This document shows positions 43,788 to 46,072 of a stretch of 64,000 bases of DNA, piece after piece. Location of the stretch: contig VXQX01000010.1 in assembly GCA_009838765.1 (NCBI GenBank), forward strand, positions 1-64,000. The letters run 5' to 3'. The notes under the pieces were generated by a model. The model was not told the DNA's origin. It saw only the letters and a list, made by a program, of their open reading frames with translations, and did not search any database. How positions within the stretch are numbered: the first letter of the stretch is position 1; every line of letters begins with the position of its first letter. This stretch comes from Gemmatimonadales bacterium. GTDB lineage: Bacteria > Gemmatimonadota > Gemmatimonadetes > Palauibacterales > Palauibacteraceae. The translations under genes and the position numbers were made by a program.

Positions 43788-43889
43788 GTCGCCCTCCCCG
43801 ATCCACCGTTCGTTGGCGGCTCGCGCGGCTCATGGCCGGGGCGCGCGGGTTGATAGTTCGTTGATGTCCGCCCCGATCCTTGTGCTGGA

Positions 43890-43912
43890 GAGGGCGGCAC
43901 GGCGTCGCCCTC
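43890..43912 (+). ncRNA. Conserved 5'-leader hairpin of small exported protein 1
   Basis: GAGGGCG (43890-43896) and CGCCCTC (43906-43912) can form a 7-bp stem with a 9-base loop. The same hairpin (loop GCAGGGTGT instead of GCACGGCGT) sits before the paralogous gene at 45639. Both are followed by ATCAGGGGAGGTGG and the start codon. Being conserved where the rest of the leader differs, it may be an mRNA element. Confidence 0.55.
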
Positions 43913-43937
43913 CGGTATCAATCAGGGGAGGTGGACG

Positions 43938-44285
43938 ATGATGAGGACGAGGAGAGGCAGGAAAACGGCGTGGCCGCTCGCCGTGGCGTGGGCCTTCGCG
44001 GGGGCATTGGCGGTCTCGCTGGCGCAGCCGTCCGAGGCCGCGGCGCAGAGCGAGTGTGGGGACTACATCTCGGGAGGTCGGGACTTTCCGGCGAGTGGAA
44101 CGCTGATAGGCTGGCAGCGGGTTACCGCCACCTTCGGCGGCAGCGCCGGCGTCGAGGGCGCCGGCCTGAGCGGCGGGCTCAACGGCAGCATCGCGGTGAG
44201 CTTCAACGTCGGCGTCTACCGGATGCACGATGGAAGCCACCTGAGCCTCCGGTGCGATGACTACACGGAATGGGACCTCCAGTGA
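43938..44285 (+). CDS. Small secreted protein, paralogue 1
   Basis: 115 residues from ATG 43938, preceded by GGGGAGGTGG. Sec signal with MMRTRRGRK n-region and hydrophobic core, cleavage near AAAQ-S; the N-terminal 40 residues nearly match those of the paralogue at 45683. The mature part has two Cys (about 40 and 106), shares E-C-x-x-(Y/W)-(I/V)-S-G-G and G-x-L-(I/V)-G-x-Q-x-V-T with its paralogue, and has a Gly-rich insert. Unknown function; no hydrolase motif. The leader hairpin and the downstream hairpin at 44466 are also shared. Confidence 0.72.
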   Translation: MMRTRRGRKTAWPLAVAWAFAGALAVSLAQPSEAAAQSECGDYISGGRDFPASGTLIGWQRVTATFGGSAGVEGAGLSGGLNGSIAVSFNVGVYRMHDGSHLSLRCDDYTEWDLQ

Positions 44286-44358
44286 GTCGAGCGCGCGGAG
44301 TCATCGGTTCGAGGTCGCGTCCCGCGCGAGTTGAGGCTGCAGCTGCGAACCGTGGGCC

Positions 44359-44450
44359 GGGGGGGGGCGCGGGGGCGGGGGGGGGGGGGGGGGGGGGGGG
44401 GCGGGGGGGCGGCGGGGGGGGGGGGGGGGCGGGGGGGGGGGGGGGGGGGG
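44359..44450 (+). repeat. G-tract of 92 bases
   Basis: From 44359 to 44450 nearly every base is G, broken only by eight C. It would form strong G-quadruplexes on the plus strand, but such tracts are also a known artefact of two-colour sequencing and of assembly across gaps. It lies between a small gene and a lipoprotein lacking a start codon, so missing real sequence is likely. Confidence 0.9.
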
Positions 44451-44465
44451 TAGGCCTCCCGCGCG

Positions 44466-44496
44466 CCGGCCACCCTGCTTCTGACTCGGTGGCCGG
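44466..44496 (+). terminator. 3' hairpin of module 1
   Basis: CCGGCCACC (44466-44474) pairs with GGTGGCCGG (44488-44496) over a 13-base loop. The stem matches the perfect 14-bp hairpin after the paralogue (46040-46072). No T-run follows. Confidence 0.5.
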
Positions 44497-44498
44497 GG

Positions 44499-45575
44499 AC
44501 GGTTTCGCGCACCATCGCTCTGGGTCTGGCGGGCGCCCTCGGTTCGGCGGGCTGCGGAGGCCCGGACGCCGACGACGGGCGTGTCTATTTCAGCGAGAGC
44601 ACCAGCCACGTTTACGAAATCGGGCCGTCCGATACCCACCTGGATCAACTGGACGAACGCGTCAGCTTCGGTTCCATCATCGACGTAGTGGCCGTACCCG
44701 GCGGCTATTTCGTCGCCGACGGGCTCGACCCGCGTATCGTCCTGCTCGATGAGGGTCTCAACCCGGTGCGAACCATGGGCAGGGAGGGGGAAGGACCTGG
44801 AGAGTACAGGCTCCCGTGGCATCTGTCCCGGGCGGATGATCGGGTTCTGGTCCACGATAGCGGGAACGGCCGGGTCACCTACCTGACGCTGGAGGGCGAT
44901 TTCGTGGCGAGCCGGCGGTTTCCCGGTCTCGCAAGCGGTATCGCGGGACATCCGGAACTCGGGCTGCTCGTCGCGGGCGATGCGTTCCCCGACCATTACC
45001 TGACGCGAGTTTCGGAGCAGGCGCATACCGCTTTCGGACCGATCCCGGCCGAGTGGATCGTCGACCCCGAAGACTCCGACGACTCCGCAGACAAAGTACA
45101 GCTCCCCGAGGATCGGGTCGCGGTGACGCCCGACGGTCTCGTACACGTCCTCGACGGGGATCGGCTTGCGCTCGTGAGTTATCGCCCCGACGGCGAGCTC
45201 GTGGGCATCGTCTTCCTGCCCAAGGAGATGCAGGCTCGCGAAGTGAAGCAGAACGAGGAGATGATCGAAGCGCTCGGCGGACGCGACCGAGTCCTCTCCT
45301 CACCGGTGGTGATGTCCCTTACGCCTCTCGACGATGGTCGCCTGCTCGCCGGAACAACCTCCGCGGTGACCGCCGACGGTCTGGTCACGAGGGGTCGGGT
45401 ACTGGACCTGGAGCGTCTCGAGGCGATCCCCCTGGTCTTCGGCGCCGACGTCGATCGACCATGGGCACGGGCGGTTCGCGTCGATATCGACCGACTGGAT
45501 CGGGCGGTCCTCAATCCCATGTGGACTGCGAGCCTCGAAGCCGCGCCGGTCCGGCTTGTAGACCGGGACCGATGA
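44499..45575 (+). CDS. Beta-propeller (6-bladed, NHL-like) lipoprotein, start unresolved
   Basis: From 44454 the frame is open, but no ATG, GTG or TTG precedes the lipoprotein signal RTIALGLAGALGSAGC; the first GTG (44688) falls inside the propeller. The codon nearest the signal's start is ACG at 44499, so the real start is either rare, or lost with the G-tract. The mature protein has repeats such as FVADGLDPRIVLLDEGLNPV, GREGEGPGEY and VHDSGNGRVTYLTLEGDFV, typical of 6-bladed propellers (YVTN/NHL). Surface-exposed ligand binding is likely; no enzyme motif. Confidence 0.68.
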   Translation, partial: TVSRTIALGLAGALGSAGCGGPDADDGRVYFSESTSHVYEIGPSDTHLDQLDERVSFGSIIDVVAVPGGYFVADGLDPRIVLLDEGLNPVRTMGREGEGPGEYRLPWHLSRADDRVLVHDSGNGRVTYLTLEGDFVASRRFPGLASGIAGHPELGLLVAGDAFPDHYLTRVSEQAHTAFGPIPAEWIVDPEDSDDSADKVQLPEDRVAVTPDGLVHVLDGDRLALVSYRPDGELVGIVFLPKEMQAREVKQNEEMIEALGGRDRVLSSPVVMSLTPLDDGRLLAGTTSAVTADGLVTRGRVLDLERLEAIPLVFGADVDRPWARAVRVDIDRLDRAVLNPMWTASLEAAPVRLVDRDR

Positions 45576-45638
45576 TCTTCCCCCCGCCGCGACTCCCGTT
45601 GATGCCCCGTTGAAGCTTCTCAGGATCCTGGTATCGGA

Positions 45639-45659
45639 AGGGCGGCAGGGTGTCGCCCT
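45639..45659 (+). ncRNA. Conserved 5'-leader hairpin of small exported protein 2
   Basis: AGGGCG (45639-45644) pairs with CGCCCT (45654-45659), 6-bp stem, 9-base loop (GCAGGGTGT). Same position relative to the SD as the hairpin at 43890. The two differ in loop sequence but keep the stem. Confidence 0.52.
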
Positions 45660-45682
45660 CGCTGACCGATCAGGGGAGGTGG

Positions 45683-45973
45683 ATGATGATGAGGACGAGG
45701 AGAAATCGCGGAGGAGCGTGGCTGCTCGGGGTGGCATGGCTTCTTGCGGGAGCCCTGGCGCTTTCGCTGGCCCAACCGTCCGAAGCCGCGGCACAGGACG
45801 AGTGTGCGGAGTGGGTGTCCGGAGGTCCGGACAATCTCGCAATCGGGCGCCTGGTAGGCTCTCAGGAGGTGACGTTCTACGTGCGTTTGTTCATCTGGAG
45901 GATTCCCGTGAACATGACCGTCGGGTGGTACCACCTGGATAACGGCGGCCTCGCCGGCCTCCCGTGTCCATGA
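45683..45973 (+). CDS. Small secreted protein, paralogue 2
   Basis: 96 residues. Three consecutive in-frame ATGs (45683, 45686, 45689) follow GGGGAGGTGG; the first is used. The signal peptide (MMMRTRRNRGG to AAAQ-D) almost equals that of paralogue 1. The mature 60 residues share the DECAEWVSGG start, the G-x-L-V-G-x-Q-x-V-T block and a terminal Cys (95), but lack the Gly-rich insert and have a hydrophobic YVRLFIWRIPVN stretch instead. Two Cys probably form a disulfide. Function unknown. Confidence 0.72.
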   Translation: MMMRTRRNRGGAWLLGVAWLLAGALALSLAQPSEAAAQDECAEWVSGGPDNLAIGRLVGSQEVTFYVRLFIWRIPVNMTVGWYHLDNGGLAGLPCP

Positions 45974-46039
45974 GCCGCGCGCAAGGCGTGACCGGTTCGA
46001 AGCTCCGTCCGCGGGGGTTGGGTCTTCGCCGAGAGCCGT

Positions 46040-46072
46040 CCCCGGCCACCGAGTTCCGCTCGGTGGCCGGGG
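46040..46072 (+). terminator. Perfect 14-bp hairpin after module 2
   Basis: CCCCGGCCACCGAG (46040-46053), loop TTCCG, CTCGGTGGCCGGGG (46059-46072). A very stable RNA hairpin 67 bases after the small gene's stop. Only ATGGTTGATG follows, so intrinsic termination would be weak; it may stabilise the 3' end or mark the end of the module. Related to the hairpin at 44466. Confidence 0.7.

Follow-up and report, generated by a model that had tools for sequence, protein, structure and literature searches.

The small exported proteins of the NVEALA family (PF14055) of Bacteroidetes often lie beside six-bladed propeller genes. The locus analysed here resembles this arrangement in that a small exported, Cys-containing protein is encoded near a putative six-bladed propeller gene and in that both cases involve lineage-specific paralogues. 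However, the proteins described here lack the NVEALA motif, and the best match of the NVEALA model in the genome (E 0.158, 13.9 bits as compared to a cut-off of 27) lies elsewhere than at the two genes considered below. The downstream protein of the unit matches the propeller region of DUF5128/6-bladed beta-propeller (PF17170), in the window copy below the cut-off, and NHL structures, but these family models do not describe the paired small protein. A third point of comparison, by description and not by sequence, is BamI, a lipoprotein of the Bacteroidota BAM complex. The excerpted account (PMC12578637) describes it as a six-bladed propeller at the cell surface, within an envelope complex that lies largely outside the cell, and mentions no small Cys protein partner. 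A literature search for the pairing of a small exported protein with a propeller retrieved no paper.

Two related genes for small exported proteins

Two genes for small exported proteins with two Cys residues are present in the window, by which we mean the whole stretch of 64,000 nucleotides that was analysed (Table 1). Both open reading frames had been delineated in a sequence-only reading of this DNA and were recovered here, as were the two Cys residues and both shared motifs (ECGDYISGG in gene 1 and ECAEWVSGG in gene 2; GTLIGWQRVT and GRLVGSQEVT, respectively) and the difference in a Gly-rich stretch, which is absent from gene 2. A shared signal peptide is likewise evident, but its description as near-identical was somewhat overstated: amino acid identity is 78% over residues 1–37, as compared to 36% for the mature parts. 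Synonymous sites of the two genes have already diverged (dS about 0.85), and the likeness is therefore conserved at the protein level and is not that of a fresh copy. Nor is it due to chance, because the leader palindrome GGGCGGC..GTCGCCC and the GTTGAT repeat each occur twice in the window, where 0.03 and 0.23 occurrences are expected, respectively, and because no other open reading frame on either strand of the 64 kb passes a filter for small exported proteins with two Cys residues. The mature part of the small exported protein measures about 58–78 residues.

Table 1. Coordinates of the features of the peptide–propeller locus in the window
Feature	Position	Strand	Remarks
GTTGAT direct repeat, 11-bp-phased, leader of gene 1	43849..43865	+	GTTGATAGTTCGTTGAT; putative promoter/regulator site; conserved in orthologous leaders
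Palindrome/hairpin, leader of gene 1	43892..43912	+	GGGCGGCACGGCGTCGCCCTC; from sequence comparison
Shine-Dalgarno region of gene 1	43924..43934	+	AGGGGAGGTGG; from sequence; gene 2 has an identical one
Gene 1, small exported two-Cys protein	43938..44285	+	115 aa; signal peptide codons 1–37; mature part 44049–44282
Propeller lipoprotein gene, unit 1	44282..45575	+	expected GTG start overlaps gene 1 stop; frame can be read from 44454 onwards; Cys of the lipobox near 44553; putatively six-bladed, NHL-like
Poly-G tract with scattered C, 92 nt	44359..44450	.	shifts propeller frame in 5' coding part
GTTGAT repeat, leader of gene 2	45598..45614	+	GTTGATGCCCCGTTGAA
Palindrome/hairpin, leader of gene 2	45640..45660	+	GGGCGGCAGGGTGTCGCCCTC; from sequence comparison
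Gene 2, paralogue of gene 1 (small exported protein with two Cys)	45683..45973	+	95–96 aa; start ATGATGATG; mature part 45797–45970; now without own propeller
N-terminus remnant of lost second propeller	46031..46072	+	ESRPRPPSSARWPG; relatives ANRPRPPSSARWPG; hairpin kept

The propeller gene and the remnant of a second copy

A propeller lipoprotein gene does lie between the two genes, as had been noted, but its additional role as candidate partner of gene 1 in the same operon unit had been missed. In P. denitrificans, the stop codon of the peptide gene and the start codon of the propeller gene share the sequence GTGA; the frames overlap in other relatives too, in several of them by 4 nt, and the window has the same GTG. 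The poly-G tract in the 5' coding part of the window's propeller gene probably arose as an artefact during sequencing or assembly, because relatives carry at this site a short sequence with a strong hairpin (CCCCGGCCACCGAG..CTCGGTGGCCGGGG); in P. denitrificans, too, a short sequence stands in its place. Inspection of aligned orthologues by eye revealed a signal peptide with a lipobox Cys (LGLAGALG, then AGCGG), as expected of a lipoprotein. The window's propeller scores below the cut-off of the PF17170 model (17 bits as compared to 22.9, E 0.0036), which a close paralogue in the same genome (C49:69263) exceeds with 33.4 bits. By sequence, residues 80–166 match NHL-repeat structures (3e-13 to fly Thin), and the AlphaFold model (pLDDT 45) is too poor to count blades.

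Downstream of gene 2, ~14 codons of a second propeller survive, which read almost like the beginning of the propeller precursor in relatives, and relatives carry partial second propellers: P. poriticola retains the first part of its own, and a further genome (G030) retains a remnant. Remnant and partial copies together indicate that the whole unit was duplicated and that the second propeller was subsequently lost. An apparent terminator shared by the 3' sides of both genes was discarded as such, as it is in fact a hairpin inside the 5' coding region of the propeller and its counterpart in the remnant. Genes 1 and 2 each represent the first gene of a tandemly duplicated two-gene operon unit, which comprises a small exported protein and a propeller lipoprotein, and the window holds one and a half copies of this unit. 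The locus is better described in these terms than as a duplicated peptide module.

The shared 5' leader

The leader block that had been claimed for both genes corresponds to 65 nt (43891–43955 and 45639–45703) that are 86% identical and contain ATCAGGGGAGGTGG. Loss of leader identity in close relatives had been envisaged as evidence against the claim; a leader of ~90 nt is kept in all 13 Palauibacter genomes that have the locus. In orthologues the stem of the palindrome is nearly invariant, and single-base indels fall mostly in its loop. A coding upstream open reading frame was ruled out for the leader, as single-base indels place it in different frames in different species and its ATG is not maintained. 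Comparison of the leader with known RNA families yielded no match at or near the gathering score.

When up to three mismatches were allowed, the GTTGAT repeat gave 22 matches in the whole genome, as compared to two for a reversed-pattern control. The motif GTTGATAGCCCGTTGAT, which precedes a further peptide–propeller pair (C96, see below), also occurs at unrelated genes and may for this reason represent a general regulator or promoter site. Furthermore, 11-bp-phased GTTGAY repeats are present at other genes of the genome (C21:6714, C39:61095 and C89:3648), and it is possible that such repeats are binding sites of a direct-repeat regulator. Two repeat arrays with N gaps were seen in addition, namely a coding repeat of ~21 nt (MDGRLDA) downstream of an exact GTTGATGGCCCGTTGAT motif on contig C89 (L118 1800–2070), and an array of GGGCGTGAGTCCC that immediately precedes the gene for a paralogous peptide on contig C49 (L002 1290–1435).

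Linkage of peptide and propeller in relatives

Contigs homologous to this locus are labelled Candidatus Palauibacter or Gemmatimonadota; a published paper deals with the order Palauibacterales (PMC10469786). The order gyrB – peptide – propeller lipoprotein – glpK is found in 13 of the 17 Candidatus Palauibacter genomes searched, although in one of them the locus is divided between two contigs. A second peptide gene is present in seven of these 13 genomes, including that of the window. The many tandem paralogues that had been anticipated did not materialise: the locus comprises one to two units, and two to three dispersed copies exist elsewhere in the window's genome.

A profile search for the peptide covered 395 genomes of the phylum and found it in 17. 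Wherever a complete peptide homologue is followed by readable DNA, a propeller gene comes directly next, and this holds for other families of the class as well. Tandem second copies depart from this rule and mostly retain a propeller remnant or a truncated propeller; after the second peptide copy in one genome (G048), no propeller was seen. A more distant form of the peptide with extra Cys (C43, G026) is also followed by a propeller. Searching from the propeller side, we recognised by eye probable distant relatives of the peptide upstream of the propeller in some genomes (L151, L155, L157 and L162), and in the same search an upstream peptide was absent at many related propellers. The dependence is one-sided, that is the peptide implies the propeller and not the reverse: the propeller needs no peptide, because many propellers, relatives included, lack such a peptide upstream. 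Orphan second peptides nevertheless persist without a propeller of their own.

Divergence of the mature part

A conserved leader and signal peptide joined to a fast-changing mature part, as originally proposed, is seen both in orthologues and in in-paralogues. Among gene 1 orthologues, amino acid identity falls from 0.84 in the signal peptide to 0.68 in the mature part and to 0.59 in the middle of the latter, as compared to 0.96 for gyrB, 0.93 for glpK and 0.73 for the propeller. Gene 2 of the window's genome (G000) and its counterpart in a neighbouring species (G020) share 97% of the residues in the signal peptide and 58% in the mature part (gyrB, 98%). The dN/dS ratio of the mature part is 0.6 in gene 1 and about 1 in gene 2, as compared to a ratio of 0.35 in the signal peptide and of 0.11 in gyrB. 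Single pairs reach mature-part values of up to 1.7, which do not differ significantly from 1 (Fisher tests), and significant positive selection was accordingly rejected.

The tandem copies of P. poriticola are 97–100% identical from about −50 to +130, 57–83% identical from +130 to +340 and again 87–100% identical up to +730, which leaves about 50% protein identity between a near-identical leader and signal peptide on one side and the propeller start on the other. The signal peptide has no synonymous differences at 28 sites, whereas the mature part has 10 at 51 sites. A diversity-generating retroelement was rejected as the source of the variation, as substitutions arise from all four bases and show no adenine bias. 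The pattern fits cassette exchange or homogenisation of the flanks, together with a mature part in which change is either tolerated or selected for. The mature part may be swapped as a cassette through recombination, with leader and signal peptide either retained or made uniform by gene conversion, a scenario that concerns the origin of the variation and is compatible with the explanation preferred below. The contrast in synonymous change and the identity that resumes in the propeller speak for it. However, P. poriticola is the one clear case, other tandem pairs diverge more gradually and no donor was identified, for which reasons we regard exchange as a tentative possibility at less than even odds.

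The propeller as proposed partner of the small protein

The mature peptide is modelled with modest confidence (pLDDT 71) as four strands, and the stretch of variable length forms a disordered hairpin tip that joins the second strand to the third. The prediction is that of a small beta-sheet protein, in which the two conserved Cys residues could form one disulfide. Searches with this fold returned neither a PDB match nor a viral match at E ≤ 0.001. No other observation points to the function of the peptide as strongly as its stable pairing with a propeller lipoprotein. We give a probability of about one half to the reading that the propeller is the dedicated partner of the small protein in a cell-surface complex, and that the fast divergence of the tip reflects a changing partner outside the cell. 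The first gene of the unit would encode a small Sec-exported protein and the second a six-bladed NHL-like propeller lipoprotein; both proteins would be made together and both directed to the cell envelope, where the propeller would serve as receptor or carrier of the small protein. We infer export, a disulfide and physical binding of the two proteins at the surface, where the variable hairpin tip would meet its outside partner and diverge quickly as the latter changes. In the window, the second unit has lost its propeller and keeps only the small protein.

Alternatively, the small protein might contribute to the structure or assembly of a propeller lipoprotein complex, as a subunit, and this complex would have a housekeeping role in the envelope. 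The fast change of the small protein would then reflect relaxed constraint and not interaction with an outside partner. This would agree with mature-part dN/dS ratios that never significantly exceed 1 and with a propeller that also evolves fast in comparison with gyrB. However, simple relaxation does not explain why synonymous change is raised in the P. poriticola divergence island between near-identical flanks, and a scaffold under constraint is indicated by the conserved Cys residues together with the core of YISGG and VGxY; on balance, a housekeeping subunit appears rather unlikely. We consider improbable a bacteriocin-like system, in which the small protein antagonises related strains, the propeller lipoprotein confers immunity and an arms race between toxin and immunity drives divergence. 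The protein is small and exported, has two Cys residues, occurs in tandem copies and differs in its mature part between close species, as would befit a bacteriocin. However, the second copies in five genomes (G000, G019, G022, G023 and G030) keep the peptide without a propeller, which is the reverse of what immunity would demand, unless the first propeller also protects against the second peptide. Moreover, the signal is of the ordinary Sec type with an Ala-rich end before the first Cys, not the double-glycine leader of class II bacteriocins, and the adjoining genes (gyrB, propeller and glpK) include no C39 peptidase/ABC exporter or other dedicated exporter or processing gene. The peptide matched neither a bacteriocin model over cut-off nor a PADLOC defence model. 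That the pair are ordinary members of a known family that was missed is very improbable, as weak sub-threshold matches to PF22432 (best E 0.0075) are opposed by two results: the peptide exceeds the curated cut-off of no Pfam or NCBIfam model, in keeping with the earlier remark that a described family with this pattern is not known, and the genome contains no NVEALA match over cut-off.

This uncultured marine bacterium encodes dozens of exported propellers, and their stable genetic association with small exported proteins, most of which are Cys-rich, is a concrete starting point. From this association, a ligand or subunit is predicted for a large family of orphan propellers, and compact pairs become available for biochemical work. 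Since a similar arrangement exists in Bacteroidetes, an answer could carry over to that group.

Peptide–propeller pairs elsewhere in the genome

The genome contains 33 PF17170-like propeller matches. A strict filter (60–200 aa, a hydrophobic signal, a ribosome site, at least two Cys residues and a position just upstream of the propeller gene) detected a small exported protein upstream of 8 of the 30 propellers examined, and looser inspection raised this number to 10 of 30. As background, the filter was passed at none of 1212 test positions in TonB-receptor loci and at 7 of 1258 test positions in the window, and these seven derive without exception from genes 1 and 2. Most of the other upstream peptides are Cys-rich and bear no recognisable relation to the peptide of genes 1 and 2, and about two thirds of the propellers examined stand alone. 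Pairing is general in this genome, as several other propellers are also preceded by a small, mostly Cys-rich exported protein. At one further locus with an unrelated peptide–propeller pair (C96, L119 1560–3883), an exact copy of GTTGATAGCCCGTTGAT precedes a gene for an exported peptide with six Cys residues, which is followed by a propeller-like lipoprotein, assigned by eye and with no Pfam match, and then by a DsbA/thioredoxin-like gene (PF13462, PF01323).

These observations allow for a broader scenario, which we consider doubtful at present, in which Gemmatimonadota possess a repertoire of many propeller lipoproteins, each with its own small exported, mostly Cys-rich protein from one of several unrelated families, under partly shared control and with the exported part diversified by exchange or selection. 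If true, this repertoire would constitute a surface recognition or antagonism system new to description.

Two further arrangements were observed. An unrelated family of Cys-rich peptides lies upstream of propellers on two contigs (C11, L010 and C62, L015); its members are more alike in the signal peptide than in the N-terminal half of the mature part, and their leader is not conserved. Elsewhere (C81, L019), two different small exported Cys-rich proteins are encoded in tandem upstream of a propeller, with further propellers within 8 kb.
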